Positions 1 through 59,700 of a DNA stretch of 64,000 bases are shown piece by piece. Both the position numbers and the translations under genes were made by a program. Within the stretch, counting starts at the first letter, position 1. Every line of letters starts with the position of its first letter. Below the pieces are notes generated by a model, which saw only the letters and a list, made by a program, of their open reading frames with translations, made no database searches and was not told the origin of the DNA. The DNA is from Argopecten irradians (lineage: Eukaryota > Mollusca > Bivalvia > Pectinida > Pectinidae): contig NC_091142.1 of the NCBI RefSeq assembly GCF_041381155.1, positions 9,171,340 through 9,235,339 on the forward strand. Direction: 5' to 3'.

Positions 1-3000
1 GACATGACAGTATACAGTGACCTAGACAGTATACAGTGTTACACAGTAGGGACATAGACAGTATACAGTGTTACACAGTAGGGACATAGACAGTATACAG
101 TGTTACACAGTAGGGACCATAGACAGTATACAGTGTTACACAGTAGGGACATAGACAGTATACAGTGTTACACAGTAGGGACATAGACAGTATACAGTGT
201 TACACAGTAGGGACCTAGACAGTATACAGTGTTACACAGTAGGGACATAGACAGTATACAGTGTTACACAGTAGGGACATAGACAGTATACAGTGTTACA
301 CAGTAGGGACCTAGACAGTATACAGTGTTACACAGTAGGGACCTAGACAGTATACAGTGTTACACAGTAGGGACATAGACAGTATACAGTGTTACACAGT
401 AGGGACCTAGACAGTATACAGTGTTACACACAGTAGGGACCTAGACAGTATACAGTGTTACACAGTAGGGACATAGACAGTATACAGTGTTACACAGTAG
501 GGACATAGACAGTATACAGTGTTACACAGTAGGGACATAGACAGTATACAGTGTTACACAGTAGGGACATAGACAGTATACAGTGTTACACAGTAGGGAC
601 ATAGACAGTATACAGTGTTACACAGTAGGGACATAGACAGTATACAGTGTTACACAGTAGGGACATAGACAGTATACAGTGTTACACAGTAGGGACTAGA
701 CAGTATACAGTGTTACACAGTAGGGACATAGACAGTATACAGTGTTACACAGTAGGGACATAGACAGTATACAGTGTTACACAGTAGGGACCATAGACAG
801 TATACAGTGTTACACAGTAGGGACATAGACAGTATACAGTGTTACACAGTAGGGACATAGACAGTATACAGTGTTACACAGTAGGGACATAGACAGTATA
901 CAGTGTTACACAGTAGGGACATAGACAGTATACAGTGTTACACAGTAGGGACATAGACAGTATACAGTGTTACACAGTAGGGACATAGACAGTATACAGT
1001 GTTACACAGTAGGGACATAGACAGTATACAGTGTTACACAGTAGGGACATAGACAGTATACAGTGTTACACAGTAGGGACATAGACAGTATACAGTGTTA
1101 CACAGTAGGGACATAGACAGTATACAGTGTTACACAGTAGGGACATAGACAGTATACAGTGTTACACAGTAGGGACATAGACAGTATACAGTGTTACACA
1201 GTAGGGACATAGACAGTATACAGTGTTACACAGTAGGGACATAGACAGTATACAGTGTTACACAGTAGGGACTAGACAGTATACAGTGTTACACAGTAGG
1301 GACTAGACAGTATACAGTGTTACACAGTAGGGACCTAGACAGTATACAGTGTTACACAGTAGGGACATAGACAGTATACAGTGTTACACAGTAGGGACAT
1401 AGACAGTATACAGTGTTACACGTAGGGACAGTAGGGACAGTAGGACAGACATACAGTGTTACACAGTAGGGACCTAGACAGTATACAGTGTTACACAGTA
1501 GGGACATAGACAGTATACAGTGTTACACAGTAGGGACATAGACAGTATACAGTGTTACACAGTAGGGACATAGACAGTATACAGTGTTACACAGTAGGGA
1601 CATAGACAGTATACAGTGTTACACAGTAGGGACATAGACAGTATACAGTGTTACACAGTAGGGACCTAGACAGTATACAGTGTTACACAGTAGGGACATA
1701 GACAGTATACAGTGTTACACAGTAGGGACATAGACAGTATACAGTGTTACACAGTAGGGACCTAGACAGTATACAGTGTTACACAGTAGGGACATAGACA
1801 GTATACAGTGTTACACAGTAGGGACCTAGACAGTATACAGTGTTACACAGTAGGGACCTAGACAGTATACAGTGTTACACAGTAGGGACCATAGACAGTA
1901 TACAGTGTTACACAGTAGGGACATAGACAGTATACAGTGTTACACAGTAGGGACCTAGACAGTATACAGTGTTACACAGTAGGGACATAGACAGTATACA
2001 GTGTTACACAGTAGGGACCTAGACAGTATACAGTGTTACACAGTAGGGACCTAGACAGTATACAGTGTTACACAGTAGGGACATAGACAGTATACAGTGT
2101 TACACAGTAGGGACATAGACAGTATACAGTGTTACACAGTAGGGACCTAGACAGTATACAGTGTTACACAGTAGGGACCTAGACAGTATACAGTGTTACA
2201 CAGTAGGGACATAGACAGTATACAGTGTTACACAGTAGGGACATAGACAGTATACAGTGTTACACAGTAGGGACATAGACAGTATACAGTGTTACACAGT
2301 AGGGACCTAGACAGTATACAGTGTTACACAGTAGGGACATAGACAGTATACAGTGTTACACAGTAGGGACCTAGACAGTATACAGTGTTACACAGTAGGG
2401 ACATAGACAGTATACAGTGTTACACAGTAGGGACATAGACAGTATACAGTGTTACACAGTAGGGACATAGACAGTATACAGTGTTACACAGTAGGGACAT
2501 AGACAGTATACAGTGTTACACAGTAGGGACCTAGACAGTATACAGTGTTACACAGTAGGGACATAGACAGTATACAGTGTTACACAGTAGGGACCTAGAC
2601 AGTATACAGTGTTACACAGTAGGGACCTAGACAGTATACAGTGTTACACAGTAGGGACATAGACAGTATACAGTGTTACACAGTAGGGACATAGACAGTA
2701 TACAGTGTTACACAGTAGGGACTAGACAGTTACAGTGTTACACAGTAGGGACATAGACAGTATACAGTGTTACACAGTAGGGACATAGACAGTATACAGT
2801 AGTGTTACACAGTAGGGACATAGACAGTATACAGTGTTACACAGTAGGGACATAGACAGTATACAGTGTTACACAGTAGGGACCTAGACAGTATACAGTG
2901 TTACACAGTAGGGACCTAGACAGTATACAGTGTTACACAGTAGGGACATAGACAGTATACAGTGTTACACAGTAGGGACCTAGACAGTATACAGTGTTAC

Positions 3001-4123
3001 ACAGTAGGGACCTAGACAGTATACAGTGTTACACAGTAGGGACATAGACAGTATACAGTGTTACACAGTAGGGACATAGACAGTATACAGTGTTACACAG
3101 TAGGGACCTAGACAGTATACAGTGTTACACAGTAGGGACTAGACAGTATACAGTGTTACACAGTAGGGACATAGACAGTATACAGTGTTACACAGTAGGG
3201 ACATAGACAGTATACAGTGGTACACAGTAGGGACATAGACAGTATACAGTGTTACACAGTAGGGACCTAGACAGTATACAGTGTTACACAGTAGGGACAT
3301 AGACAGTATACAGTGTTACACAGTAGGGACATAGACAGTATACAGTGTTACACAGTAGGGACTAGACAGTATACAGTGTTACACAGTAGGGACATAGACA
3401 GTATACAGTGTTACACAGTAGGGACATAGACAGTATACAGTGTTACACAGTAGGGACATAGACAGTATACAGTGTTACACAGTAGGGACATAGACAGTAT
3501 ACAGTGTTACACAGTAGGGACCTAGACAGTATACAGTGTTACACAGTAGGGACATAGACAGTATACAGTGTTACACAGTAGGGACCTAGACAGTATACAG
3601 TGTTACACAGTAGGGACCTAGACAGTATACAGTGTTACACAGTAGGGACATAGACAGTATACAGTGTTACACAGTAGGGACCTAGACAGTATACAGTGTT
3701 ACACAGTAGGGACCTAGACAGTATACAGTGTTACACAGTAGGGACATAGACAGTATACAGTGTTTACACAGTAGGGACCTAGACAGTATACAGTGTATAC
3801 ATTAACAGTAGGGACATAGACAGTATACAGTGTTACACAGTAGGGACCTAGACAGTATACAGTGTTACACAGTAGGGACATAGACAGTATACAGTGTTAC
3901 ACAGTAGGGACATAGACAGTATACAGTGTTACACAGTAGGGACTAGACAGTATACAGTGTTACACAGTAGGGACATAGACAGTATACAGTGTTACACAGT
4001 AGGGACATAGACAGTATACAGTTTTACACAGTAGGGACTAGACAGTATACAGTGTTACACAGTAGGGACATAGACAGTATACAGTGTTACACAGTAGGGA
4101 CATAGACAGTATACAGTGTTACA
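1..4123. repeat. 32-bp minisatellite array
   Basis: About 128 head-to-tail units (array length divided by unit length). The core is CAGTATACAGTGTTACACAG followed by TAGGGAC and a variable joint. The joint occurs as ATAG or CTAG (32-bp units), CATAG (33 bp) or TAG (31 bp), so units can be typed by it. Local damage is visible at about 1421-1450, 2722-2740, 2795-2805 and 3785-3805. The array starts at the window edge, so its full length is unknown. It has no spacers and no reading frame. Because gene 1 enters the window in mid-protein at 4381, the array probably lies in an intron of that gene. Confidence 0.97.
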
Positions 4124-4417: not shown

Positions 4418-7400
4418 GTATGGTACTAACTGAGATACTGGTTCCTGGTTTATCATCTTGATGTAGCCATGTATGATTTGAAAAAATATGTGAAAGTTAT
4501 GGGTTTTTTTATACATTTTGTATGATATTAATTAATATTAAATGATTAATATTCTGTTAATTAATGTTTCTTTTACTGTTAACCAACTTATTTTGTTATG
4601 CAGTTAAATTTCACATTTTTCATGGGTGATTAAAAAATCATAGAAATATTTTGCCACCAAAACATTTCAAATACAGGTTAAGTAGACACAAATAGGTCTA
4701 AGAGAGTAATCAATTAAATCAGTGGGAAAATTGTGAGGCGTGAAAACACAATATTAAGTTGCTGTAAAAGTAAGTTAGTTTACAGAACATATTATGCTAT
4801 TAAGAAGTTTCACTAAACAAACCATACTGGATGAATGAAATGTAAGGATCATAATGAGAAGGTATATATATGTTTTTTTTCTGTGTTACAGTGAATTCCT
4901 CACACTCAAATCCAGTGAAAAGATCGTCCATCTTGAAGAAAGTGGAAAGGAACTTCGAACAGGAGATGGCAAGTCATTTTTGTAGGGTTGTACAGTCATT
5001 GTATAAATAACGACCTTGACCTTCATTCAAAGTCATATGTGTCAAATAGGCTAAAATCTTATTAGAACTTTTGTTAGAAACTAAGAGACCTGATATTGGG
5101 CCTTTTTCAAGATCTCAGAGGTCAAATACTTAAAGATGAAGATCTTTAAATACCTAGATTATTCAGAAATTGGGTTGTAGCATGCTGGACGAAGCATTTT
5201 AAATTTGGTAATTAGAATGACCTTGACCTACTTGCTGAAAATAAGAAAAAATAAAACTAACAATTTCATTTTGAAAATTACTTTTATTATATAGTCAGGT
5301 GACCGTTAAGGCCCGTTGGGCCTCTTTTTTTTCAGGATTTACGTGCCCATGTACTGTGAAAATTCTGACAGAAGAGTTGGGCTACAATAAGGTAAGATGT
5401 ATAGTCAAACCTGTCTATAAAGACCACCCAAGAGTCAAACCTGTATATAAAGACCACCCCACAGTCCAAGAAGAGATGGTCTTTATATTCATTTGGTCTT
5501 TATAACACAGGTCAAATTGTGTTGAATTTGACAATTTAGGACCCTGTAAAGAGGTCTTATTACGCAGGCGGGCTTCATACAGAGGTGGTTCATAAGGAAG
5601 GTTTGACTATTTTACATAATACATGTAGTGTTAATACTCAGTTTAATAGAATACTGTTAACGTGGACATTTTTGGAAGTGTTGATTTTACAATTATTCAT
5701 GTTAATTTGTGCTAATTTGAAAAGAAAAGAAAAATCATTAAGAGTTGTCTCCCTTGAATTTTACTTGGTTCAGATTCTGACCTGTTTATCATTGACTAGC
5801 TATTAGATGATACCTATTATCATATATTGATCTGTTAGACACACAATTTTCATTAAATCCCAACTATCATGTACAGCGTATATGTAATTGAATACTCCTC
5901 AATACCGATCATATTTTCATGCTAACCTGCCATGCAATGGCCGGTGAACAACTGTCTGTCATGCTGTCAAACTTTTGTTTTTTTAAAAGTATTAGATATT
6001 TTTGAAGTGTGTAAACATCAACCTTTTTGTTCAACAACTAGAGTGTGGTATCAATTTTAGCTGTTCAAGAGGTTATGTCGTGCAAAGTCATAATTACTGT
6101 ATTTTCAGCTTACTTATTTTAAGACAGCCTTTAAGTGCCACTACGTATACCTTTCCGAAACGGCTTTTAATTTTTAAAATAGGAATGTAAAACGAGATCA
6201 ATAATTTTGTAGAGTCGCAGAAGTTATTAACTATACGTTTACTAGCACACTTATCATCACCTTCAGAACTATTTAATTAGAATAAATAAAATGTTAATTT
6301 TCATAACGCGGGTCTTTTTATGTTTCCCGTCGTCGTCCTAAATGCCGCGCGGTAGTTGAATATCACTGCGCCAGACGACAAAACAGCGAAATGAATCTTC
6401 ACTGTTATCGTACATTAGACAGGAAATCTTGCATATTTTTGGTGTTGTAACCTCATCTTAAGCCATCGATATATATCTTCTTTTGTTATTAATGTTTTTT
6501 AAGAAACCTATAAATTTTGCTCCGGAAAGGTAGTTATTTTAAGACAGCCTTTAAGTGAAAATAAAAAAAAATGTAAATTATCATTTATAAACGCTGATTT
6601 AAAATGTGCAATTCTGTAGTTCAGTAGCTGCTGAGAAATAAACTTTGCAAAAGTTAGTGCTGTACATGAATGTTTCAAAGATAGTGTAAAAAGTACAAAA
6701 ATAAAACTACCACTAAAATAAGTATTTTAACAGTATATGAAGTTCCAAGATTCAATCTGGATCACATGACAATTTTTTTCATGTATACATATATATATAT
6801 GTATATATACTGTATAAACTGAAAAAAAGCTAGTTTCAAACCAGTAGAAAATCAGGTGTTATAATATGGCATTTTGTTTTTATTTTTCAAAACCAGGACT
6901 ATAAGCCATTCAAAATCTTGGTGATAGAAAAACCGCTAGACATTTTCAATCCAGTGACATCTTCACAGGTAAGATTAATGTCTTCACAGGTAAGATTCAT
7001 TTCTTCACAGGTTAGATTTATTTATTCACATGTAAGATTATTTTCTTCGCAGATTAGATTCATTTTTTCACAGGCTAGATTTATTTCTTAACTATAGTCA
7101 AGAAACACAAGTAGTCATAACTGGGTTTTTTTTCTCTATATATTCTATGCATGCAATTATTTTCTTTGAATTTTCCTAATCTCATCTATGGATGGATTTT
7201 AACCAAATATGACATACTTATATATGTAGGACATTGTCTACACTTTGAGCATATTTTTTCATTTCATATCCTTCTTTGTTCTATCCAAAATTGCAACAGA
7301 AAAGTTTTGCTTGTGAGATATGTTTTTCTCAAAAAGAACATAATGGAAAATTGTGTAAATATTGTAAGCTGAAAGCATTAACAATTTTCTACAACCTTTG

Positions 7401-10400
7401 ATTAAAATTCATCAATAGATGAAATCAGGAAAATTTAGAAGAAAAAAAAAGTAAAAATACAAAGAATATGTAGAAAAAACAGTAATGAATACCTTTGTTC
7501 CTCGACTGTAAGTCAAATTGCTGTTCAGACATTTTTTATTCCCACCATGAGCTCCATTTAATATGTAAACATAGGTTGAATTACCTCCCTTTAAGAGTCT
7601 GTACCATATGTTTACAACCGATTAAATATGATATACAAAAGTGCGTACATAACAAGTGAAAATAATTACTTTTCAAATACAGCTGAAATTTAATACAGTA
7701 TGTTGTAATGCATGGGACCATTGAAAATATTTCAATTAATCTGAAATTTGACGCAAATTGTCAAAATTATGTTTGATTGGTGATTGATTGATGGGGCTTA
7801 ACGTTCTTGTTCCGGTTATAACCGAGCCTAGGACACCTAAAAATTGTGATTGACTTTCCTGTTTTCATTATATGTTTTAATTATGGCAATGAATTTTGTT
7901 TAACAAATTTTTGCATACACATCCTTAATAAATATCATAATTAATTGTTATCTAAGACATGCTACTAATATAAGTACAGATAATATTAACTCATTCACCC
8001 CTGAAATTACAAAATGGACTAATCCAATCTTTGAACTAGAAGAACTTGAAAAGGTCTTCATGGGTAAATTTTTTAAAACAAAAGATAAAGGGAGATAATT
8101 CAAACTCTATTGTTGACAGCATGTTATTGTTGACACTCTGCAAATGATATTGAAATATCAATGCAAGTGTGTGCTCTTCATTCCAGACGAGAGTTAGAAC
8201 AGGAAGTGAGAGGATTTCAGAAAAAGATGCTGTGTTGTCTGTGTCGGAGTAAGTGATTTATTTACAGAAGTAACAAATGAAAATCAAATTGAATATAATG
8301 ATAAAACAATGAACCCAACCATTGAAGGGTATCAGGAACTACAACAAACAATAGAGTATTTTTTAATGTGCAGAATGACTCCAATATAATTCTTTCCACA
8401 TTTTTTTTTATTCAGATGCCGTGAGATTTTATCAGAAGAGTATGGCCAGGTGAGATTAACTTTATCACAATAATTATGGCCAGCTGGGATTAACTTTATT
8501 TCAATAATTATGCCAGGTTAGACTAACTTAATCCACAATAATTATGGACACACTAAAAAATAAAATCAAAGTGATTAATTCATTCTTCTACTTTTTTTAG
8601 TTAATTGGTAAAATAATAAATAATAAATGATAGATTGTGTCCTGTACTGCTTCGATCACATTTATATGCTGTAAAATAAATTTTCAACATCTCTGTGACC
8701 CTGGTAATCAGTAAATATTTACTGTTTGATGAATGAACATGTGTACAGGTGATGAAGATCTTTGTGTACAATATCTTTCAAGCTGCCAAAATGTCATAGG
8801 GAAGTAGCCCAGCAGACCGCCTGTCATATTCCAGCCATGTGCATGTTTAGTTGAGGAAGATAAAATATGCTTAAATATCTGCAAATTCAGTACCAAAATT
8901 TACTAGAATGCAGGAAATTGCATCTAGGAATTGAAAATCCCTGTACCTCTTACATAATATAATGCTCGCACCTTCAGCACACGTGTCTGTTGGTCCCCAT
9001 AACATAATTAGGGCTTCCAAGGATAACAGCATGATATCCCTATGATTTGCTGTGAAGAAGATTTTAATGAACTTTTGTACAGGCGATGAAGACTTTAAAG
9101 AACAATGAACTTTTTTTTCTACAGGTGATGAAGACTTTTAAAGAACATTGAACTTTTTTTCTACAGGTGATGAAGACTTTAGACGACAGTATACGAGTGT
9201 TTGAGGCTAATTATATGATCCTAACAGAGTATATGGACGATGCTTGTCGGCGCCTCCAGGAAATAAGCCACGCGGCAGTAGAGGTATGATAATTAGTGAT
9301 CTATGTGAGGGAACAAATGGATGTATCTCTTTAAAGATAGGTCACTGCAGCCTTATTTTCAATGACCTCTTTAGAATAGGTAAAAAAAATTACATTAGTA
9401 CTTGAATTTATTTTGCTGTTCCATTTAATTTTTATGTATTACAGAGAGTTATCTTCCTTGCAGGTAGGTATTGATTGTGATGTCATTACTGTGTGAGCAC
9501 AAACTACATGTACGTCGTTTACTCTGAAAAGTATGATGTTACACTCAACATATATGACGTCACAATCAATACCTACCAGCAAGGGTAGATCTATAGCTCT
9601 GTAATATGCAAATGCAAAAAATGGTATTTGGATATCTCAATTAAAAAAAATGATTTCTTGTGTCTCACTTTGTAACAGAAATGTCTTAAATGTGGAAAGA
9701 GACAGCAGAAAGGAAAGTCACATCTGAGCAGGGAAGAGTTGGATACCGTCATAGAAAGGTTGGTTTGTTGTTTGAGGTGTATTAGCTGGTTTCTTTATCC
9801 AGACATCCTCAATACTCCAAGGGTTACTATCAATTACCAATCACATGCCAGAGAGAGCGACACCCAACTTCAAAGCAACACAGTCAACCACAGTGTACCA
9901 TTATACAATTCTTTTGATGAACATCAAAGGACCAAATAACCTGTGTTGTCTCCAGTTTTACTTTGAGATAGTCCAGGGGTGGATATAGCGTCAGTGATAG
10001 TAACCCCTTGAGTATCGAGGATGTCATCCTGAAGTCAATTAACCACATAAGCACAGACCAGTAGGATTACAAGCTTTAGACACTATAATGTGGTGACTGC
10101 ATTGTATCGTTGACCCCTGAAAATTCATAATGAATTCTTCCAGACTTTAAATTGAAAGAATTCAAATGTGTCTTCAGGGGTGATTGAGTGAAGATTAGGT
10201 TTCAAGTGATTATGACACAAAAATTCTGCACAATAGATGGTGTGGCACGAGGAAAAATTTTCATTAAAAATTATGCATAAGGTTATTAACATTACAATGT
10301 GTGTACATCCAAACCTGTCTATAATGACCACACAAAGGACTGAGACAATGGTCTTTATAGCCAGGTGGTCTTTATAGTCAGGTGGTCTTTATACACAGGT

Positions 10401-13400
10401 GGTCTTTATAGCCAGGTGGTCTTTATACACAGGTCACATTGTGTTGAAATGGTCATTTGTGACCCTAAGAAAGCGGTCTTATTAAGCAGGTGGTCTTTAT
10501 ACAGAGGTGGTCGCTAAGGCAGGTTTTGCTATATTTGCCAGTTTGTGATTTCACAAAGATAGTATTAAATAGGGGAACTATATGAAAAAATATCAAGTGC
10601 TTAACTTGAAGTTTACCTGAAAATGACATCAAAAGTGACCAGAAAACAAGGTCAATTTCACAAAAAAAGTACATCTAATAAATTTCAATTTCAGGTAAAT
10701 TCAGCTTAAATTGACCCATAAAATTTTCAAGTAAATTCATGGAGTTCAATTCTTTTTCACCTGAATGTACCACAACTTTTGATTTTTCATGTTAATGGAC
10801 ATTTTTGGGCTTAAATGTAAAATTTAATCTGAATTTGACCAAAAACCTGAAGATAATTTGCCTGTGTACATATTTTTCCCAATCCCATTATTTGACGTCG
10901 TTTCCTTCAAGAGATGAAAAGAATTACACCTTGTGTTCTGCATCACATGTGTTTAAACTCATTCACCCCTTAGGACATATTTAGACTCTCCTAAATCAAG
11001 GACTAGAACAGTCCATTATGAAATAAAAGGGGTCAATGTATTGTAACTTTTTTTTTCTGTAGTTACGTGGTTGGGAGTGTCCACACAAAGTTATTCTGTG
11101 CCATTCGTGACAAATTAACGACCGATGACGAGTGTTTGTTGCAGAAATGTAAACAACTAGAAGGTGTGACCCCGGACAAGTTGAAGGTCAGACGTGACTT
11201 TACCTGTCCCTTACCAGCAGCTGTAAGTACCCAAGCTAAGGGCCACTTAAAGGAATGCTGAATGGAATTATTTTCAAAAACCTCCATTACCACGATGAAA
11301 ACAAATTAAAGGGATAATTTTAGAGAGTTCAGTGAAAATTATTTGAGAGTGCATTGAAAGTTATGTTTTGGTAATAAACTGGTTCTAAATAATGGAGTAA
11401 TTGCTATCACTGTGACCTGCCGGCAAATGTCTACTGTATCAAGTTTCTGCAATGTGAGGAATTGCTTGCTTGCTGCCATTACAAATTGGTGGTAGTGACA
11501 TCTTGTATGCTGAAACCAAACCTACACCTGTAGAGTAAAGCACTTTATGCCTGGCACTACTCAAATCACACTTATAGTACTGTAGGGTGTTTCCTATTTC
11601 AGATGCATGATGTTTGACTTTTTTTTTCTAATAATAATAAAAGACGTTTCCAAGAATCGTTTTCTATACCAGTCGTGAATCTTGCTTGGGTGTAGGCATA
11701 TCCATCCTCGATACTCCAGGGGATCTGATCACTTACGATCTCTACACCCCTGAACTATCCCGTTGTAAAAATGATGGCAGCACAGAGGAAAACCTCTGAA
11801 CCAACCACTGTGAGGACTGCAGCGACTTACTTTGAAGACTACAGAAAGAGGGAAGCCCAACTTCAAAGCCACACAGTCAATCACAGTGTATCGTTATATG
11901 GATCGACTCTTTTGATGTGCATGTACATCAAGCGACTTAATTGCCTGTTCTGTTCTATTGCCTCCAGTTTTACTATGAGATAGTCCAGGGTTGTAAAAAC
12001 GTAAGTGATCGGAACCCATTGAGTATCAAGGATGAGGTACATTGTACACATTGTACCTGCAAGATTATATAGCTGTATGATTAGGAATTTCTTAAATAGT
12101 TTCACTGAATAATCTCTTTAAAATAATTGCAATGGAAACATTCAGCCCGTATTTCTCATTTATTGTTAAGGCCGCTTAAATTTGTTATAACTCGACTTTG
12201 TAAAAAAAAGGTTAAATATTTGTTTTGATTCTAGGTTGTGGAGCTTGCTAATGTTGATGGATTGAAGACGCCTCTGGAGAAGCTACATTGTCTTAAGACA
12301 ACCATTGTACGTACCATTTGTAGAATGTTTTATTTATTAGATTAGTGAGCTTTAGCAATGGTGTCCATTGTCTGTCCTGTCAACATTTCTTTTAAATCAC
12401 AGAGTTCTGAATGGATTATAAACAAATCTGTCAAAAAACAAAAACAATTTCAGGGAAGATTTTATAAATATTGGCTCTGACTCCCAGGGACAGTAGGGGA
12501 GAGGCTGGTAGAGAGAAATTAGGCATAATTCTTTAAATTCCTTGAGGAAAACACACTTAACCTATTGCTTGGCTTAACAAACCAGATGAATACAAGTCCT
12601 CTGGGTCTCTTGTTAATAAGTAATGATTATAATATCATTTATTATGATATTCGATTTTAAACTAGATAATTGATATATCCAATTTAAACGGTAATAATAT
12701 TTTTTTCAGGATTGTATAACAGATACAATAATGTCACATGTGATTGATACCCACAACAGTTCCGTGTCACTGTCACCCTCACAAGGTAGGTACAAGTCTG
12801 CCCTCACAACGTAGGTACAAGTCTGCCCTCACAACATAGGTACAAGTCTGCCTTCACAAGGTAGGTACAAGTCTGTCCTCACAAGGCAGGTACAAGTCTG
12901 CCCTCACAACGTAGGTACAAGTCTGCCCTCACAACGTAGGTACAAGTCTGCCCTCACAACGTAGGTACAAGTCTGCCCTCACAAGGTAGGTACAAGTCTG
13001 CCCTCACAAGGTAGGTACAAGTCTGCCCTCACAACGTAGGTACAAGTCTGCCCTCACAACGTAGGTACAAGTCTGCCCTCACAAGGTAGGTACAAGTCTG
13101 CCCTCACAACGTAGGTTCAAGTCTGCCCTCACAAGGCAGGTACAGGTCTGCCCTCACAAGGCAGGTACAAGTCTGCCCTCACAAGGCAGGTACAAGTCTG
13201 CCCTCACAATGTAGGTACAAGTCTGCCCTCACATAGCAGGTACAAGTCTGCCCTCACAAGGCAGGTACAAGTCTGCCTTCACAAGGCAGGTACAAGTCTG
13301 CCCTCACAACATAGGTACAAGTCTGCCCTCACAAGGTAGGTACAAGTCTGCCCTCACAACATAGGTACAAGTCTGCCCTCACAACATAGGTACAAGTCTG

Positions 13401-16400
13401 CCCTCACAAGACAGGTACAAGTCTGCCCTTACAAGGCAGGTACAAGTATGCCCTTACCAGGCAGGTACAAGTCTGCCCTCACAACATATGAACAGTTAAG
13501 TCTGCCCTCACAACATAGGTACAAGTCTGCCCTCACAAGGCAGGTACAAGTCTGCCCTCACAAGGTAGGTAAAAGTCTGCCCTCTAAATGTAGGTACAAA
13601 TCTGCCCTCACAAGGTAGGTAAAAGTCTGACTTCTCATTTGATGGCTCTCAAGGTAGGTACTAGTCTGCTTTATTCTTTTGTAATTTACTCAAGATAATG
13701 CCTTCCTCAGTACTTACAGTATTTTAATTCTTTTGTAATCTACTCAATGTAATGTCTTCCTCAGTACTTACAGTACTTTGATTCTTTTGTAATCTACTCA
13801 ATATAATGCCTTCCTCAGTACTTACATTACTTTGATTCTGTTGTAGATATCCCGCGTCTTACCTCAGATGATCTTATCCCCATACTCGTAAGTATTAACA
13901 ATAAACTTAGCCAAGACACCAGTCTGTTCGCCTCACTGTAGGTATTGTTCACCAACAAATATTACCAGCATCATATTAGAATTATATTACTTACAATGCA
14001 TAGGTTTTAATTTTACAAGTACTGATAAAAGCTGAGAATGATTTTTGACAGTACTGCCAAAATTCTTTACATTTACATCTACAGTGCAGTGAAAAGAGTA
14101 CATGTATACGGTCAGACCAAGTTGTGGTCTATAATTTCATTTCATATTTGTACATTACTATTTGTAATTGCAAAGTGATTCCTGCAGGTATGTTTCCATC
14201 TAAGCATACATAAGGCATAAAGATAAGATTTTTTCAGTGCATACATTCTATGATGTAACTAATGTTGACTGTTTGTCAGTCCATTTAAATGATGTTCGCA
14301 GCTTAAGTCATCAATCCTTGATATTTGGTTTCTTCTGCAACAACAGTTGCTTACTTTACACCATTACCATCATTGAAAAGTTTCTGATTCTTTTTCTACT
14401 TCAAAATAAAAGTATTTAAAATTAATTAATTGCATCCCAGGGAAAAATCCATGGCACTATAAGCCTTATATGGAATGAGGTACTCATTGCACATATGACA
14501 AAGCAAATTTTTTTTTATATGACTTTTTATTTTTGTATTAATTAGACACTTATATAATATATACACATGCACTTAAACACCAATTATTGTCCAAATGATA
14601 CATATTGTTTATCAATCATAAAAGTTTAATAATTATTGTAGAAAATTATAATAATTTCTTGTGAAGGTAAATATATTAAAGAACAAAAGGTAAAACTTTC
14701 AGTTGTATACATGTGTATGTTGATGCTATTTATTTATTTTTATTTTTTTTGGGGAGGGGGGGGGGATTTTAGCCGTAGTGACCACCTCTTTATAAAGACC
14801 ATCTTTGGTGGGTCCCTAAAGGCTCATTTCAACTCAATCTGACTCTTGACCCAATTATGTTTGGCTTTAAAACCATTTTAATTTGTTCATTCGTTATCAT
14901 CCTTCTGTATCATCCCTAAACGTTTTAATTCTTACAGACATCTTCAACTAATCGTGTCTATTTCAGGTGACTGTCATCGCCCAGTCCAGGTGTACACATC
15001 TTGCTAGTAACATGTTTTACATTGAGACGTTTCATTGGTCGACTGAGATCAACGATCGAGACAACCTAAGGTATGAAAGTAAATCATCTGAAAACATCTT
15101 TATATTTCTGATTCTAACCCTACATAGATTATCCAAATTAACTTTAATGGTAGGCTATATGTTAAGGTCAAGTTTTGGCGCTATATGAACATTATTTACA
15201 TATAGCAGTTATCTGCCCATGACCGTAAGTATTAATTTTGTGACATCATGTATAATATGTAATGTCATATAGAAAATAATGTCAGTTTCACTCACAAAGT
15301 ATTGATGTCAAAAAAGATACCGTAACTGTGATGTAAAATTTTCACGATCGTAGCAAAGTAATCGAAAAAATGTTTTTTTGAGAGTTTGCGTTAAAGTTAG
15401 CTTTTGACAAAGCTAATCACATCAAATTGAATTTAAACTTCGTCAAGTAACTCCGTCACAACACATGGAAAAGATCAAGATCAATATTTAAATTGGTTTG
15501 GGTATTCTTAGGATGAAAACTCTAATTTTTAGTGGATTTTGAGACTTTTAAGTTTAATCAACTACACGCAGACTGATCAAAAATGATACTCTTTGCATCA
15601 CTATGATAGAGTACATTGGACCCTTGATAATCTGGACACCTTCGTTCCCAGCCTAAACCGTCCAGAATCTGAATTTCCGGACGAGTGAGCATAAATAAAG
15701 TTACGGAAATCCGTTTCCTGACATTTCCTTCCGGATTGCGAGTTTTCCGGACTATCAGCATCCAAATTATTGCAGGTCAACTGTACAAAATTTGTCTTGA
15801 CAAAATTTACATAAATTTAATCTTACTGAGACTTGGTCAGTCGCCATACTACTATTCAATGGGGGCGCATATTTAATAGTTTTGAGAATGGAATATATTA
15901 AATTTGTGCAGTTTTTATTTTGTGGTACACCATTTCTTCTTTATGCACTTTTGCATAACAGTTGTAAAATTCAAAATATTTTGTTGCTGTTTTGAATATG
16001 TGGATTTCAGGAAAACTGCGAATATATAGCATAAATACACCCTCTTCCGAGAAATATTTTTCCTGTTCTCTTTTGTCATACAGAACTTTATATGTCATGT
16101 TGAATTTTACAGCTACTGTATGGTCACATTCAAAGCTGCAGTCCAGTACATGATCAACACAGACTTTTCTTACCTTCAGGGTCAAAAGTCAAAGGTTAAA
16201 CGGGAGGTCAGTAAACTTTTATTTAAATTCAAGTATTGATCATTGTAATTTTGGCGATAGTAATTTAATTAATGTCAAATATATATTTATGTTTCCCTAT
16301 AAAAAGAAAAAGTAATAGTGTGACCCAAGGTTTTATGTAGATATAAATCTTGAATCCAATACAGATGAGTATTGATGAGTTGATGAGAGCTACCAAAGAT

Positions 16401-19354
16401 GTGACACTACACAGAGAGGATAACGGAAAGTTTCCTACCGGGGGCACCGCCACTAACAGGAGGGACCAACAGCTTCAGAACATATCCAGACTCATACAGG
16501 AAACTGAGGACGAATGGACCAAACCAAAGTCGGCCACAATAGAACAAAAAAGTGTATTTGGGGGTAAGGTCACTTAAGTTACTACGTAAGCGAAATCATC
16601 AAAGTTGTATGGTCTGTGACTCGCGTATCATCAAAGTTGTATGGTCTGTAACTTGTTGTATTTTTGGCATAGAAAAAGTATTTAAAGTGTTCTACATATT
16701 TTTCTCTTCCTCTCTAAGTTTTAAACTTTCCATATTTACTGACTTTAGTATAGTTCGTATTCGCAAAGTTATTAAACAAGTAAATTAGAATATTGATTTT
16801 TAACGTGTACATGTTTAAAATAGCTTGGAAGTATCTGAACTGTTCCGATCTATTCTGATCTGTACAGGTATTGTCGATATTGACCATGTGATATGGCTCG
16901 GAAGGTTCCGATCTATACGGATATCGCCGATGTCGGTCACATGATGCAACTCGGTTTTCCTATATTACCTGAAAGTTTGAAACATGGCGTTGACTCTAGC
17001 GGTTCTTTCAAAATAGTAGTATGTTTGTGCTTTGAATTCATGGATCTGAACCATCATAAGCATCCGTATTCACACATTGTATGTTTTATGAGAGTTTGTA
17101 ATGGTGAAAATTGCAAGAAATACAACTTTAAATTTGACCATAAAAATACCTTCAATCTACACACACTCTGTGGTTTTGATAAAGAATATTTTGTTTTTGT
17201 TATTTTTTCTGTATATAGATGTATAGCTACAAATATCAGGGGCTTAGGAAGCGGGGGGGGAAGGGGGGGGCAACTGCCCCCCCCGTTCCCCAGGACGGGG
17301 GGGGGGGCAAACATGTCTTTTTGCCCCCCCCATTTTCGCCGACTGAAATTTTCTAAAAATGCTTATTTGAAAGAAAAAAGGGTCCTCCTACACATTTTTC
17401 GTACTTCATTCTAGAAAATATTTTCCGCTGCGCGGCGCATTTCCTAAAACGTTCAAGCACATAATGTCAAACCTTAAATAGTGAAAATTCAATACACACA
17501 AACTAGACTAAAAATGGCCATCAAGGGATTCTATGTGCTATTTAAAAAATGTCTCTTAAAAGATCAATTTTAGCGAGACAATTAATTCATTTTTTCATGT
17601 TACACAACAATGTGCCGATGGTGTGAAGTCGGTATATTCAGATCGAGTAGGGTTGCATAATGTTATGACGACACAATTATCATTTCTAAATGCAGGTAGC
17701 TTTAAATCGAAAAATTACCATGTTAAGAACGCTTTATAATCATTAAACTTTATCGTAAAACTCATCTCAGCCATTCTAAATCGTAATTTTTTTTCCCCGG
17801 GGGAGACCCCCGGACCCCCCTAACACCAAATTCTCACGCCTTTGGGCGCTCGCAAATTCATCAAAATGCATCGTAAAAATCATCTAAGCCATTCTAAATC
17901 GTAATTTTTTCCCGGGGGAGACCCCCGGACCCCCCAAACACCAAAATCTCGCGCTGTCGGGCGATCGCAAAATCATCAAAATACATAAAACTAATCCCGG
18001 GGGTCACCGTCAGACCCTAATAAAACACCAAAATCTCGCGCCTTCGACGCTCACACGCTAATTCGGCCAATTTGCGTATTCGTTAATTTCCTTTTAGCGA
18101 CCCCACTGTCTATAAATGTGTACAAGGATTAAATTTAGTGATATATGAAAAATGAACATAAAGCATATATTATATGGTTGGGAGTTGAAATAATCTCCTC
18201 CTGTAGGTGTGGCGGGGGGGGGGTTTACAAAATATTGAGGACCTTTGCCCCCCCATGACGTTTCATCTTCCTACGCCACAAATATGATAGCTCTATAAGA
18301 CTTTTATATTGTTGTTGTCTTTAGAAAGATACAGTAGGACAGATTAGATTTATTTGTTAAATGAACAGACATGCACTCTGTTTATTTTACAGACCGGTAC
18401 CAGCAGTCACTTTTAAGTCCAGACATCAGCCAATCCCGGTCTTCCGACAAAAAATCTGCTCCACAGTTCGGGTAAGTTACCATGCCCCACCTGTGTAAAC
18501 AACTCTCAAAATGAGATTTCCTCAAAGGAAGAGTGTCAATTTGGGCCCTTTGGCGGCCATGACCGATAAGCATTATTTTTTGTTTGCAGATACATGGGGG
18601 TTGGGACATGATATGACATGGTTAAGCTCAGGTCGGAGTCCCTTGAGAGTTATGGGGATTGTTAAACAGAAGGGGAAATTTTCTCTTTTGTCCAGTTTTG
18701 CTGGAACTATTTGATATTTTTAAATGATTTTTCGTGAATTATGATATATTGATAGGTTGAAAATAAAATAAATTGGAAAATATAACTTTAGACAGCTTGA
18801 GATGTTTCATACAAGCATAGCCATGCCACATGATCATCAATCTTCAACACAGGGATGTGATACTTAGTAATGTACAGTCTAACAACAGAAAGGGGCTCAG
18901 TTTTGTCTATTTCGTTTTCTTTTACACAAGTAAGTTGTTAAGAAGAAATACGTTCAAATTTTTCTTCCTCTTTTCAAAGTAGGTGTATTGTCATTTCACT
19001 TATTTAAAGTAATTTCAGTTTAAGTGAAATGACATTACATCTATCTGGAAAAAAGGAAGAAAACATAATTCTGCTTGGCAATCTAATTAAAATAAGACTT
19101 GTAATTAGGCTTCACTATGATGTGCTGCATTGTATGTTACGCTCCAATACAAGATTGTTCTTCGTGGCAAATTACTTAATTATTAATATTCTTTTCCATT
19201 TTTTCTGGGGTTGCTATTCTTAAAGATGATATGAATTACTTACAATTATTTTCCTGTTAGACTATCATATCCATGATATTATTTTTCCGTTTTCAGGGGT
19301 TTTGGATCTTTAGAAGATGACATCTTTGAGCAATCATTTGGGAAGCAAACCTGA
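4381..19354 (+). CDS. ANKRD27-like: VPS9-domain Rab exchange factor, ANKRD27/VARP-like, lacking ankyrin repeats (5' partial, 17 exons)
   Basis: Seventeen segments join in consistent phase to give 472 residues and a TGA stop; the 5' end is outside the window. Residues 1-81 align by eye with the N-terminal domain of vertebrate ANKRD27 as I remember it (FLTL, GFTC, KILTEE and FKILVI blocks in the same order). Residues 153-159 carry a CLKC pair. A VPS9 domain spans about 180-355: SDDLIPIL near 288-295, SNMFYIETF near 309-317, SYCMVTFKAAVQY at 330-342. The Asp, Pro, Asn, Tyr and Thr positions that matter for Rab5-family exchange in VPS9 proteins are present. In the known family the protein acts on Rab21 on endosomal membranes. 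A 110-residue hydrophilic tail follows and the frame stops, whereas vertebrate ANKRD27 continues into ankyrin repeats. Family assignment is strong for VPS9, good for ANKRD27; the ankyrin-less form is seen directly but could be one isoform. Confidence 0.88.
4892..4968 (+). CDS. Gene 1 exon 2, with GC donor
   Basis: Acceptor GTGTTACAG; donor GATG/GCAAGT, a GC-AG donor in its usual context. This is the only donor that keeps phase with exon 3. Encodes FLTLKSSEKIVHLEESGKEL and the GDG join. Confidence 0.75.
5294..5326 (+). mobile_element. Terminal fragment of the 325-bp-core repeat element
   Basis: Matches the reverse complement of the left end of the element at 37975-39710 (GGTGACCGTTAAGGCCC then GGGCCTCTT) with about three differences. 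It lies directly upstream of the exon 3 acceptor and provides its pyrimidine tract. Confidence 0.8.
5336..5391 (+). CDS. Gene 1 exon 3
   Basis: Acceptor GGCCTCTTTTTTTTCAG, donor AATAAG/GTAAGA. Encodes FTCPCTVKILTEELGYNK. The polypyrimidine tract comes from the end of a dispersed repeat (see 5294-5326). Confidence 0.82.
5402..5609. mobile_element. Tigger/pogo-like MITE, copy A
   Basis: Inverted ends TAGTCAAACCTGTC at the left and the complement of CCTTCCTTATG..., with TA at both borders. The interior repeats ATAAAGACCACC motifs. Related to the element at 10304-10531. Sits in intron 3 of gene 1. Family name is from resemblance of ends only. Confidence 0.7.
6114..6557. mobile_element. Inverted-repeat element flanked by a 24-bp direct repeat
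   Basis: TTATTTTAAGACAGCCTTTAAGTG occurs exactly at 6114-6137 and 6534-6557. The sequence between begins CTACGTATACCTTTCCG and ends with the complement of CTACCTTTCCGGAG, so it has imperfect inverted ends. Part of the interior is similar to 60050-60240 (CATAACGCGGGTC, CGTCGTCCTAAAT). Confidence 0.65.
6897..6968 (+). CDS. Gene 1 exon 4
   Basis: Phase 0 at both ends, 24 codons, DYKPFKILVIEKPLDIF and on to SSQ. The donor CACAG/GTAAGA is the first unit of a 21-bp tandem repeat. Confidence 0.85.
6961..7086 (+). repeat. 21-bp tandem repeat seeded on the exon 4 donor
   Basis: TCTTCACAG/GTAAGATTAATG and five degrading copies. Intact or near-intact GT donors fall at 6969, 6990, 7011 and 7032, each 21 bp apart. 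Later units have lost the GT. Confidence 0.9.
7755..7835 (-). mobile_element. Candidate SINE 3' tail fragment
   Basis: GATTGATTGATGGGGCTTAACGTTC resembles, in complement, the tail and 3' end of tRNA-derived SINEs seen elsewhere in the window. Too short for firm assignment. Confidence 0.35.
8187..8248 (+). CDS. Gene 1 exon 5
   Basis: Acceptor TTCATTCCAG, donor TCGGA/GTAAGT. Encodes TRVRTGSERISEKDAVLSVS and two bases of the next codon. Confidence 0.85.
8416..8449 (+). CDS. Gene 1 exon 6
   Basis: A 34-nt micro-exon encoding CREILSEEYGQ. Acceptor TTTTATTCAG, donor GCCAG/GTGAGA. Its 3' end and donor are repeated downstream in tandem. Confidence 0.83.
8442..8545 (+). repeat. About 34-bp tandem repeat seeded on the exon 6 donor
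   Basis: ATGGCCAG/GTGAGATTAACTT recurs at 8476 with the donor changed to CTGGGA, and at 8509 with GTTAGA. Copies end in AATAATT. Confidence 0.85.
9040..9180 (+). repeat. 42-bp tandem repeat carrying the exon 7 acceptor
   Basis: Three acceptors with the same context end at 9082, 9124 and 9166, each followed by G(C/T)GATGAAGACTTTA. A weaker fourth unit may precede at about 9043. Only the last reads into open coding sequence. Confidence 0.9.
9167..9283 (+). CDS. Gene 1 exon 7
   Basis: 39 codons, phase 0, starting VMKTLDDSIRVFEANYM; likely helical. Two upstream copies of acceptor plus exon start exist (about 9068-9166), but the copy beginning at 9125 runs into TGA, so the third acceptor is the coding one. 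Confidence 0.87.
9439..9604. mobile_element. MITE with ends TTACAGAGAGTTATC, copy 1
   Basis: Near-palindromic element: left arm with CAGGTAGGTATTGATTGTGA, right arm its complement. Contains a full CRE palindrome TGACGTCA at 9555-9562. Similar copy at about 61682-61810. In intron 7 of gene 1. Confidence 0.75.
9679..9758 (+). CDS. Gene 1 exon 8
   Basis: Acceptor TTTGTAACAG, donor GAAAG/GTTGGT. Encodes KCLKCGKRQQKGKSHLSREE and LDTVIE, ending with AG of a Ser codon. The CxxC pair is visible here. Confidence 0.85.
9803..10023. mobile_element. CTCCAGGGG-family MITE, copy 1
   Basis: Inverted ends CATCCTC(A/G)ATACTCCA(A)GGGTTACTATCA at left and the complement at right (AACCCCTTGAGTATCGAGGATG type). 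The right end continues into TGAGATAGTCCAGGGGTGGATATA. Same family as 11703-12034, 52705-52998 and 53909-54210, and source of the array at 23275-24020. Confidence 0.8.
10304..10531. mobile_element. Tigger/pogo-like MITE, copy B
   Basis: Left end CCAAACCTGTCTATAATGACC, right end the complement of AGCAAAACCTGCC, TA at both borders. The interior has about five short copies of GGTGGTCTTTATA (10365-10435). A further fragment of the family lies at about 14770-14835. Confidence 0.7.
11063..11222 (+). CDS. Gene 1 exon 9, start of the VPS9 domain
   Basis: 53 codons beginning YVVGSVHTKLFCAIRDKL. Acceptor TTTTTTCTGTAG, donor GCAGCT/GTAAGT. Corresponds to the helical first part of a VPS9 domain. Confidence 0.92.
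11703..12034. mobile_element. CTCCAGGGG-family MITE, copy 2
   Basis: Left end CATCCTCGATACTCCAGGGG, right end complement (GAGTATCAAGGATG). The interior shares ACTTCAAAG(C/A)(A/C)ACACAGTCAA with copy 1. In intron 9 of gene 1. Confidence 0.8.
12235..12306 (+). CDS. Gene 1 exon 10
   Basis: 24 codons, VVELANVDGLKTPLEKLHCL and KTTI; the PLEKLHCLKTTI block is typical of the VPS9 helix before the catalytic core. Donor ACCATT/GTACGT. Confidence 0.92.
12710..12785 (+). CDS. Gene 1 exon 11
   Basis: Acceptor TTTTTTCAG, donor ACAAG/GTAGGT. Encodes DCITDTIMSHVIDTHNSSVS and LSPSQ. The donor is unit one of a 25-bp array of more than 30 copies. Confidence 0.9.
12779..13650 (+). repeat. 25-bp array seeded on the exon 11 donor
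   Basis: The first unit spans the exon 11 end: TCACAAG/GTAGGTACAAG. About 34 units follow. Variants are CAAGGTAGG (donor intact), CAACGTAGG, CAAGGCAGG and CAACATAGG (donor weakened or lost). Confidence 0.95.
13690..13846 (+). repeat. 54-bp tandem repeat ending at the exon 12 acceptor
   Basis: Three units containing CCTTCCTCAGTACTTACA start near 13702, 13756 and 13810. The first two end in CTTTTGTAATCTACTC, the last becomes CTGTTGTAG, the used acceptor. The same intron carries the 25-bp donor array at its other end. Confidence 0.85.
13847..13887 (+). CDS. Gene 1 exon 12, VPS9 catalytic motif
   Basis: A 41-nt exon encoding IPRLTSDDLIPIL; the DD and P match the conserved VPS9 core. The acceptor CTGTTGTAG closes a 54-bp tandem repeat. 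Confidence 0.93.
13888..14966 (+). other. Gene 1 intron 12, no exon seen
   Basis: AT-rich intron with a G-rich homopolymer (GGGGAGGGGGGGGG) near 14750 and a Tigger-like fragment at 14770-14835. Nothing else recognisable. Confidence 0.6.
14967..15070 (+). CDS. Gene 1 exon 13
   Basis: Encodes VTVIAQSRCTHLASNMFYIE and TFHWSTEINDRDNL, the conserved Asn and aromatic segment of VPS9. Acceptor TATTTCAG, donor CTAAG/GTATGA. Confidence 0.93.
15612..15785. mobile_element. Pogo-like MITE in intron 13
   Basis: Ends TACATTGGACCCTTGATAAT and, in complement, TACAGTTGACCTGCAATAAT; TA at each border; interior with TCCGGA repeats. Typical length for a non-autonomous element. Confidence 0.65.
16113..16206 (+). 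CDS. Gene 1 exon 14, end of the VPS9 domain
   Basis: Encodes YCMVTFKAAVQYMINTDFSY and LQGQKSKVKRE. The Tyr and Thr expected at the VPS9 nucleotide-release surface are present. Donor GGGAG/GTCAGT. Confidence 0.92.
16365..16563 (+). CDS. Gene 1 exon 15
   Basis: 66 codons of hydrophilic tail starting MSIDELMRATKDVTLHRED, with RLIQETEDEW. Acceptor CCAATACAG, donor TTTGGGG/GTAAGG. Confidence 0.88.
16590..16652 (+). repeat. 32-bp tandem duplication just inside intron 15
   Basis: ATCATCAAAGTTGTATGGTC occurs at 16595 and 16627. It is 30 nt from the donor but does not include it. Confidence 0.8.
17234..18283. mobile_element. Poly-G/C-ended inverted-repeat element
   Basis: Left end CAGGGGCTTAGGAAGCGGGG, right end complement of GTGGCGTAGGAAGATG, with G8 to G12 and C7 to C9 runs just inside both ends. 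The interior has about 118-bp repeats at 17752-18060 with CCCGGGGGAGACCCCCGGAC. In intron 15 of gene 1; no coding frame seen. Confidence 0.65.
18393..18471 (+). CDS. Gene 1 exon 16
   Basis: Encodes RYQQSLLSPDISQSRSSDKK and SAPQF; Ser-rich tail. Acceptor TTTATTTTACAG, donor TTCGG/GTAAGT. Confidence 0.85.
18472..19296 (+). other. Gene 1 intron 16
   Basis: AT-rich intron; no repeat or exon recognised apart from an imperfect short inverted stretch near 18990-19035. Confidence 0.55.
19297..19354 (+). CDS. Gene 1 exon 17, terminal
   Basis: Acceptor CCGTTTTCAG; encodes GFGSLEDDIFEQSFGKQT then TGA at 19352-19354. Acidic C-terminus. Phase agrees with exon 16 (GG/G). Confidence 0.82.
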
Positions 19355-24020: not shown

Positions 24021-24312
24021 TTACAATCACTATATCCACGCGTTACATTTCCTTTCATCAACAGTCAATTATCATTTTATAAGAAAAAATAATAAATTGG
24101 AATAAAGTATGACATTTTTGCTATTTTTTTATTCTTTTTTTTTTAATACAATTCTACATTAAAACTTATTTACAAAAAAATATCTGCATCAGCGTACAAT
24201 ATAGTGAAATTTTTGGAACAAAACCTCAAGTTTTTGATCTATTGAACTATAAAAAATGATGTCTAAATCCTGCAAAACTAACAACAGTTTATGAATTACA
24301 GTTGGGAGCAAA
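24021..24312. other. AT-rich spacer
   Basis: No feature recognised. Confidence 0.5.
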
Positions 24313-56468: not shown

Positions 56469-56715
56469 ATGGCCTTCTTGCCTGCTATTTTGGTAGTACT
56501 AATCGTGTCAGGGGAGGTAACTCCGTACACAAGGTGTGGAAACGAAACCCAGAACTTTGTGGGCTACACATACCTGACAGATACTGTGACGTCAGAGAAA
56601 TTATGGTCTCACTGTAAGTTTCCTAATCCAAAGTATGACGCGGCGTTGTGTGGGATAGATCGATCCACCGATCAGCATTACGTGTGTGATCCAGACAGAC
56701 TTATTACGTCACAAG
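56469..56715 (+). CDS. Gene 3 exon 1 (signal peptide)
   Basis: 82 codons plus one base; donor ACAAG/GTAGGT, duplicated 24 nt downstream. Confidence 0.87.
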
Positions 56716-59700
56716 GTAGGTCACTAGTTACGTCACAAGGTAGGTCACTAATGACGTCATTACTTATAATTGGATAAAGTTTTGTCTTTTTGTATTTTGA
56801 ATGTACGAGCATGTTATCATTTGACTAATTATTCATTTAAAATTCCAACTAGGCTAGTTACAACATTAGGTCTAGGATAATCATACTGTGTTACTGTATG
56901 TAGGATACGATTTCTTATTTTACGGAATGGAGTACTAAGCATAAGAGAATGTATCTTATTTATGTCAATCTGAATCTGTTTATATATGTTTGAAGTCGAA
57001 GATGATTATTTCAACGGAGAACAAACTATACATTTAATTGATTGTGTGATATGGAGCTACAGGTATAATGGAGTACATGTAGGCCCTACATGTATGCAAA
57101 TTACAAACACACACGCACCGGGTGTATGTAATAATAGCGTGAAGTGCATCAATTGAAACTGTTCTCATATGTTGTTTTTAAAGCTGCTCCACCGTCGACA
57201 AAGCATAAATGATATTCATCAGTTGAACAATAATTGGTGTTTGATCATGTATATATATGTCTAATTAACACAAAAATGATATAACATAATTTATTTCGCA
57301 TTTGGTGCATGCGCAATCAGTACTTCCTTCTATATAGGATATAGTGCCACAGAATTTTTTCGGGATGCAATTATTTTTCATATTTTTAACTTGAAGTAAA
57401 GTTAGAAGCTCAAACTTTTCAATGGTGGTAATGATGGAAAGTAAGTAAATTTTGTAACTGAAGAAAAATACTAAATCGTCTGCTCCTGTTTTTGATAGTG
57501 AAAAAATACCATTTGTCAGCGGTGGAGCATCTTTAAATTAAACTTGTTACAAAATCATAAGATTATAACTGTCATTACGAAGCAGAATTTACAATGCGAT
57601 GCCTATTTAGTTTCACACTTACTTCAAAATGTCAAAAATCCGGAAAAATAATAAAACAATTATAGCATTTTGATTTCGGTCAATACATGGTTATATCGAC
57701 CACAGAAAAAATATCGACCTCGGACGAATATTTTTTCTTTGGTCGATATAACCATATATCCTACCATTATTCCGCTATATCCTACCATTATCTCGCTTTA
57801 TCCTATCAATATTCCGCTATATCTTACCATGATCTCTCTTTATCCTACCAATATTCCGCTATATCCTACCAATATTCCGTATTATCCTACCATTATCTCA
57901 CTACATCCTACCATTATTCCGCTATATCCTACCATTATCTCGCTTTTTACTACCAATATGTATAGGAGAAAAACCGAAAACTGTGGAATAGTCAAGATAA
58001 TGAATTGTTCGAGGCCGAGAACTTTTCATTATCTTTACTATTCCACAGTTTGAGGTGTTTCTCATACTTAAAACATGGCACTGAATGTCATTGGTACTCT
58101 CCACTATTACACTGGGTATTGTTTAACTATTCCACAGCTCCAGGTAAACCCTTACTACCTATTTAAACCTTGAGACCTAATCATGATTCAATTCATTCCC
58201 TCATTCGGAGAACAAGAATCATAATTTGCATGATTTTTTTTGAAAGATCCATGCACAGGTACTATATGGTACTTACTGAAACATTAACTCAGTTTAGTTT
58301 TCACTGTTCAACATGGAGGGCAATATATATGTAGCTCTGTATGCAGATTGGAACACAGTAATGATGATTTTTGGATATACATTTGAACTATTTTGGGCAA
58401 TAGTCTTTTCCCATACAGCACAACCTTAGTGGGAGCCAATCAAAATTTAGAGAGAAAAAAACCCCAAAATATTCCCTAATATATTGGATCATAATACTAT
58501 CGGTACATTTACACAAAAAAGTGAAATTATGTGGCAAAATAGTGTGGTTTTGAAAAGTATTCCTTGGGAATCATTATCTTCATGAAAGGTGTTGGGATAT
58601 TATTTCGTTTGATAGATGCCATTTTTATGGAATATGAAGAGATTTGGATAACGAAATATGGAACAATCATGTGAAGCATCTGTAATTTCATTTTAGCAGA
58701 CAATTTTGCATTTGTCTCATGGAATTTAATCTTGATATCTCTCCTCTGGATTTATTAATGTGAATTCTTTTCTGGATTATGGATACAGTGGCTGTGAAAG
58801 AAATGATTTATTTTGAAATGAAGTGATGAAAATTGTATATATCAGTATTATGAAAATAAGTTTACAAATACATCACGACAACGTTGACAAGTACCTGGGT
58901 TAATCTGTAATCCATCTCTCCTTGGATTTAATGAATGAGGATGTATTTCTGACTTCATGCTAGGCTATATTTACCAGTCTATACACTTCCCTTCAACTGT
59001 GGAATATTTACCTTTTTTCTTGGAATAGTTCACAAACTATTCCACAGCAGAAGGTAACTATTTCACAGTAGTAGGTGATAATAGTAGACTTTGCTACAAC
59101 TATACCACAAGCTATAACAATAGATGACATCACAGCCATGTTTTAATACGCTTTATCCGACAAATATTTTCTTATATCCTACCATTATTACGCTACATCC
59201 TACCATAATTTGCTATATCCTGTCATTATTTGGCTATATCTTAATGTAAAGTAGAATCATACAATGGTAAAAGAGAATAAAATGAAGATGAAATCAAATA
59301 AATTAAAGATGAAATCAAATAAATTTAAGATGAAATCAAATAATATAACGATAAATGAAAATAATATAATGATAACACCGAAAAAATCAATGATAGATGT
59401 AAATCAAATATATATGTCACCAAATCAAATAATGATGAAATCGAGAGATATAACGACAAAAGAAAAAAATACCATGACAAAGGAAAATAAAATTATAGTA
59501 GTAGAAGCAAATGATATTAGTAAAATCAAATTAATTATTGATGAAATTATACCTTATATTGATAAAATGAAATCATATTATGATAAAACCATATCAAAGA
59601 ATGAAAACACAAATTCATATAATATACAACAGCTGTGGCGTTCCATAATTGACAAAGGGAAATAACTCCTGCATCCTCGAAAGAAATTAGACGATTTACA

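Follow-up and report, generated by a model that had tools for sequence, protein, structure and literature searches.

The stretch of the Argopecten irradians genome analysed here (G000:C9:9171340-9235339, 64,000 bp, hereafter the window) raises the question of why splice junctions should lie again and again within tandem repeats, and whether such junctions attract tandem duplication or simply tolerate it. Two genes are concerned, a gene with a predicted VPS9 domain (gene 1) and a second gene represented by its first exon (gene 3). Several of their junctions are covered by short-unit tandem arrays, which repeat the edge of the exon together with the splice signal. With a probability of roughly 0.75, these arrays can be read as "mirages", that is, minisatellites that straddle an exon-intron boundary, were seeded by duplication and are tolerated through their outer copy.

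The assembly comprises 845.8 Mb in 1,508 contigs, and contigs C1-C16 have lengths of 34.5-75.5 Mb. Gene 1 was modelled from exon 4 onward, together with exon 1 of gene 3. Pfam scans of the window covered the + strand at 5001-24802 and 34201-64000, and the arrays in the window were called by the Tandem Repeats Finder program (TRF). For comparison, arrays were sampled in 20 stretches of 10 kb taken at fixed coordinates (200 kb). The array load of this sample is high: 71 arrays with a period of at least 10 make up 23% of the bases. The window itself additionally holds two very long arrays, at 19-4123 (32 bp, 128 copies) and 31042-35412 (about 20 bp, 220 copies).

Gene 1 and the arrays at its exon boundaries

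Gene 1 was rebuilt as 12 exons (exons 4-15 in the numbering of the first-pass annotation of this DNA) at 6897-16563, which form one frame with no stop and encode a product of 370 aa. The junctions used have GT after and AG before each exon. According to the Pfam analysis, residues 175-289 of the product match the VPS9 family (PF02204, E = 2.9e-19), and similarity to the solved VPS9 protein 2efc was also detected (E = 1.6e-7). The join of exons 11 and 12 is located inside the VPS9 match. As for gene 3, its exon 1 shows similarity to MOLO1, with an E value of 2.3e-6 in one scan and of 6.6e-5 in another, in which the match fell below Pfam's own cut-off. The exons concerned and the arrays at their edges are as follows (gene 1 exons placed by splice signals and frame, arrays called by TRF):

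6897..6968, + strand: gene 1 exon 4 (DYKPFKILVIEKPLDIFNPVTSSQ)
6960..7089, + strand: 21-bp array, 6.2 copies, at the exon 4 donor (6968), with 9 exon bp (7 in the 63-bp row of TRF)
8416..8449, + strand: gene 1 exon 6
8441..8547, + strand: 34-bp array, 3.1 copies, at the exon 6 donor (8449), with 9 exon bp
9073..9180, + strand: 42-bp array, 2.6 copies, at the exon 7 acceptor (exon start 9167), with 14 exon bp
9167..9283, + strand: gene 1 exon 7
12710..12785, + strand: gene 1 exon 11, within the VPS9 match
12776..13629, + strand: 25-bp array, 34 copies, at the exon 11 donor (12785), with 10 exon bp
13669..13845, + strand: 54-bp array, 3.3 copies, abutting the exon 12 acceptor, intron only, its unit containing the dispersed core AGTACTTWCAGTACTTTGATT
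13847..13887, + strand: gene 1 exon 12 (VPS9 domain), placed also by the Pfam match
56469..56715, + strand: gene 3 exon 1, coding part from the proposed ATG (MOLO1-like), placed by the Pfam match
56699..56759, + strand: 24-bp array, 2.5 copies, at the gene 3 exon 1 donor (56715), with 17 exon bp

The first-pass annotation had reported tandem arrays at six junctions of these two genes, and all six were recovered when the TRF arrays were compared with the rebuilt exons. Its further statement, that the repeats contain the exon edge plus the splice signal, holds for five of the six. The units at exons 4, 6, 7 and 11 of gene 1 and at exon 1 of gene 3 span the boundary and include 7-17 exon bp, whereas the array at exon 12 includes the A and excludes the G of the acceptor AG and contains no exon bp. 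Within gene 1, 4 of the 23 junctions from the exon 4 donor to the exon 15 donor lie inside arrays that repeat 7-14 exon bp together with the splice signal, and both types of boundary are affected (three donors and one acceptor).

Donor sites in the repeated units were scored using a donor matrix, with a threshold of 9.5 bits. Counting the authentic site in each case, eight such sites were found in the 25-bp array, two each in the 21-bp and 24-bp arrays, and one in the 34-bp array. In the 25-bp array, the GGT donor core has been lost from 25 of the 33 full units, and 32 of the 47 base differences among these units fall in donor columns -1, +1 and +2. The changes of CGT to CAT or TGT in this array fit CpG decay spread through array turnover, which may explain part of the pattern. 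The units of the 25-bp array of gene 1 and the 24-bp array of gene 3 have TCACAAGGTAGGT in common; this likeness, compared post hoc, was equalled by 16 of 500 shuffles keeping AAGGTAGGT. The start of exon 7 (CAGGTGATGAAGA) has a single further copy outside the array, at 8741-8765, approximately 420 bp upstream of the exon.

Proposed origin of the boundary arrays and known counterparts

In the scheme proposed here, tandem duplication of a stretch of approximately 20-55 bp lying by chance across an exon-intron boundary would seed the array, and slippage or unequal exchange would afterwards expand it, as in any minisatellite. Splicing would need just the outermost copy beside the exon (the first at a donor, the last at an acceptor), while the inner copies would turn into intron, and boundary arrays may persist because this one copy suffices. 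The arrays, the junctions and the high array load of the sample are observed; that duplication seeded the arrays, that splicing uses the outer copy and that the arrays are tolerated is what we infer. The use of the outer copies as splice sites is suggested by gene 1, which with these copies remains in one frame across its 12 exons and yields a VPS9 protein. The structure also recurs outside the window, at the donor of an exon at L056, probably at a donor at L026, and on the acceptor side of exon-like stretches at L002 and L006, all described below. The milder of the two readings in the first-pass annotation, namely survivorship of duplications that leave one junction intact, gives the best fit. 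Where about one quarter of the genome is tandem array, many genes should have arrays at their boundaries, gene 1 being a dense case.

Internal tandem repeats are said to alter exon-intron structure in recently duplicated human genes. In lancelets, the available excerpts of the reports describe mirages as tandem repeats at splice junctions of both kinds (5' and 3'), with units of 10-160 bp, in which many inner copies contain cryptic AG/GT and the authentic boundary is kept; for the arrays of Adh3, TnC, globin and PGBD5, splicing was reported to be undisturbed (PMC3087553, PMC3902484). The genomic mechanism is called unclear in the excerpted text (PMC3087553). As far as these excerpts go, the present arrays are similar in their boundary-spanning units, in the involvement of both boundary types and in the cryptic signals of the inner copies. 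They are different in that five junctions of a single gene are involved and that one array is confined to the intron and contains a dispersed repeat end. Copy-number polymorphism and normal splicing have been reported for the lancelet mirages, whereas the arrays described here are known from the sequence of one assembly. The papers found with the term mirages both concern lancelet genes, and the searches made are no proof that other animals lack reports of such arrays. In Caenorhabditis elegans, the CeRep25B minisatellite is close to alternative splicing regions, according to the excerpt available (PMC4039745). It is likewise an intronic minisatellite tied to splicing, but represents one dispersed family, whereas the units described here are mostly unrelated from junction to junction.

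Boundary arrays of this kind have been described before, in lancelets, and their accumulation in gene 1 appears to be for the most part repeat growth that was tolerated, with a modest hint of attraction to splice donors. If boundary arrays are common beyond lancelets, they represent a general side effect of abundant minisatellites, one through which introns grow and decoy splice sites arise.

Splice donors as possible duplication hot spots

According to a competing explanation, splice donors are true hot spots of tandem duplication, for example through AGGT slippage or co-transcriptional DNA structures. We regard this as unlikely, and the same doubt applies to what it would entail: that donors, not acceptors, are the favoured birthplaces of minisatellites, that a few percent of strong donors carry arrays, and that introns lengthen from their 5' ends. 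The first-pass annotation had suggested that junctions in this genome may be such hot spots. The part of this suggestion that finds support is a modest excess at donors and an excess in gene 1; the near-cognate word, the acceptors and the arrays outside the window, all considered below, speak against the rest, and the evidence does not establish junctions as hot spots across the genome.

The junction excess in gene 1 supports a hot spot. Four of seven arrays span a junction, with at least 3 bp on each side, versus 0.48 expected under uniform placement (P = 6e-4); the null model gave each array a single founding unit at a random position in 6897-16563, all positions being equally likely except those wholly within exons. 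Admitting the abutting array of exon 12 as a fifth gives P = 2.3e-5, although that array breaks the rule of the test itself. Gene 1 was picked for showing the pattern, so the test is post hoc and its P values are too small by an unquantified factor. Two arrays in gene 1 are located away from junctions (TRF):

10349..10434, + strand: 17/34-bp array, mid-intron
11316..11364, + strand: 22-bp array, mid-intron

Outside the window, junction arrays with a strong donor are less frequent. In total, 130 arrays were compared, 35 from the window and 95 from outside it (71 from the fixed stretches, the other 24 from 60 kb adjoining the window). A strong donor at an apparent exon end was found in 4 of the 35 and in 1 of the 95 (Fisher P = 0.019), a comparison that counts strong donors only and leaves out weak donors and acceptors. 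The window is enriched in such arrays relative to the sample, which argues against taking its rate as the rate of the genome. The single case outside, in the fixed-coordinate sample (L026:2272-2431), is a 53-bp array of three copies with a strong donor, identified by donor score, on an exon-like stretch of 53 bp. It is probably a donor array, but the open frame of the stretch counts for little, since 76% of random sequences as long as this are open in some frame. Donor-like motifs with no evident exon were noted at L009, at L016 and at position 49019 of the window. In the sample, 4 of 71 array units reach donor scores of at least 9 bits versus 0 of 71 reversed units, numbers too small to carry a conclusion.

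Genome-wide analysis was performed with exact 9-mers, a pair being counted when a second copy started 18-48 bp downstream. The donor word CAGGTAAGT gave 3,179 pairs and 19,404 singles (16.4%; reversed form, 120 and 5,409), and the donor word CAGGTGAGT gave 1,823 pairs and 9,737 singles (18.7%; reversed form, 258 and 2,883). For 9-mers in general, averaged over the positions of the 20 stretches, the value is 4.7%. The near-cognate non-donor word CAGGTCAGT gave 1,782 pairs and 7,815 singles (reversed form, 406 and 4,571); at 22.8% it exceeds both donor words, so the pair counts prove nothing about donors. The contrast of 3,179 with 120 pairs, which at face value favours a hot spot, was rejected as proof of one, the reversed form being a poor control and large arrays driving the pair counts. 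Nine pooled non-donor words gave 4,783 pairs, and their reversed forms 3,247. The acceptor word TTTCTACAG is at the background level, with 570 pairs and 13,415 singles (4.2%) versus 686 and 12,415 (5.5%) for its reversed form.

Distinct arrays were tallied by eye among the matches listed, which is the scope of all array counts for words given below; the numbers of loci were estimated from the genome-wide singles. Four arrays in 6.5 Mb were found for CAGGTAAGT, 16 in 71 Mb for CAGGTGAGT (with a cluster at 62.37 Mb taken as one array), 5 in 60 Mb for CAGGTCAGT, 8 in 70 Mb for TTTCTACAG and 23 in 511 Mb for the reversed word TGAATGGAC. The two donor words together have 20 arrays at about 790 loci (2.5%), or 19 (2.4%) when one of two CAGGTGAGT arrays on C1, at 30.13 and 30.36 Mb, which look like inverted copies of one, is left out. 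The three pooled comparison words have 36 arrays at about 4,680 loci (0.77%), and the difference per locus is significant (P = 6e-5, or 1.6e-4 without the duplicate). The acceptor word alone, at 0.76%, shows no enrichment, and the near-cognate word reaches 1.2%, from which the donor words differ with P = 0.08 (0.10 without the duplicate). At the start of C1, the nine pooled non-donor words gave 5 arrays over 6.5 Mb and 10 over 17 Mb (0.56 and 1.1 per word), where the two donor words gave 4 and 5 arrays (Poisson P = 0.003 and 0.006, values calculated per word that ignore the greater abundance of donor singles).

A modest excess of arrays on donor words, whether at exons or elsewhere, is likely, amounting to two- to three-fold per locus. 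It may have its source in a higher array content of genic regions. When the starts of three CAGGTAAGT arrays were fetched, one proved to be at a coding exon (L056), and the two others (L054, L055) have no evident coding-exon start. The exon at L056 (G000:C1:5149050-5149600), found by the donor-word search, is guanylate-cyclase-like (PF00211, E = 1.4e-6; natriuretic peptide receptor chain, E = 1.8e-11), and its donor opens a series of 18 exact copies of CAGGTAAGT, mostly 48 bp apart. Selection against decoy donors as a general rule was rejected on account of these 18 exact copies.

Some of these results weigh against the reading of the arrays as tolerated boundary minisatellites. Plain survivorship does not predict the excess of junction-spanning arrays in gene 1 (P = 6e-4), nor the approximately three-fold excess of donor words over the pooled comparison words per locus. 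Which copy is used in splicing is deduced from the DNA sequence.

Possible regulatory role and intron birth

A regulatory role, in which repeated donor or acceptor copies would tune splice choice or add in-frame peptide repeats, seems very improbable. The array at L056 could be cited in its favour, with its many exact donor copies and with 48-bp units one and two beyond the donor open in the frame of the exon, but units three and four meet stops. In addition, unit lengths of 34, 25, 53 and 49 are not divisible by three, and the 25-bp array has lost most of its donor cores, as described above.

Least probable of all is that the arrays mark introns being born when AGGT-containing exon sequence is duplicated in tandem (the Rogers model), a route that the first-pass annotation had cited. 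AG/GT is present within the donor-side units and arrays stand at both ends of intron 6, but the exon pieces repeated in the window measure no more than 7-17 bp. The test was made on intron 6, whose end units show no clear excess of likeness over shuffles in which CAGGT was kept (50 of 300 equally alike), so that intron 6 as a duplication-born intron is unsupported. In Drosophila, the part of the report available describes new introns arising with a short duplication, either across the boundary of exon and intron or containing AG/GT (PMC2891723). The arrays described here resemble those cases in being short duplications across a boundary or with AG/GT, and differ in that they would lengthen existing introns, no new intron being shown.

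Exon 12 array and its dispersed repeat end

The array before exon 12 was rejected as a duplicate of the exon edge, its 23-mer core (AGTACTTWCAGTACTTTGATTCT) being the end of a dispersed repeat. This core was found at 1,475 places in the genome with at most two mismatches, and at none in its reversed form. In 15 of the 20 exact matches read by eye, a longer repeat of one of three kinds terminates with this core, and the flanks diverge beyond it.

A search with the exon 12 array detected arrays at three further places, on C12 (L002), C13 (L006) and C16 (L003-L005, L007), which have CAGTACTTWCAGTACTTTGATT in common. Those at L002 and L006 abut an exon acceptor, beside exon-like stretches with an open frame, 164 and 191 bp long (by chance, 12% of stretches of 161 bp and 7% of those of 190 bp are open), whereas the C16 array is mid-intron. 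Approximately 11 exon bases are repeated in L002, while L006 repeats the core alone. Since the core stands at repeat ends in 15 of 20 matches, the end of a dispersed element belongs to three acceptor-side arrays. The exon 12 variant of the proposed scheme would be growth from intron DNA with a dispersed repeat end, the last partial unit reaching into the acceptor.

The core AGTACTTWCAGTACTTTGATT is the common end of at least three dispersed repeat kinds (L034-L053 are among the places), and it is located 9-11 bp before an exon in three unrelated genes. At L051 (G000:C6:30722020-30722420), the core is followed by CTGTTTTAG and 98 bp in which each of the three frames meets stops, as judged by eye, and a strong donor; this may possibly be a non-coding exon created at a repeat end.

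Elsewhere in the window, at 9455-9585, an inverted repeat (TCCTTGCAGGTAGGTATTGATTGTGATGTCAT / ATGACGTCACAATCAATACCTACCAGCAAGG) that flanks donor-like sequence was noticed by eye.

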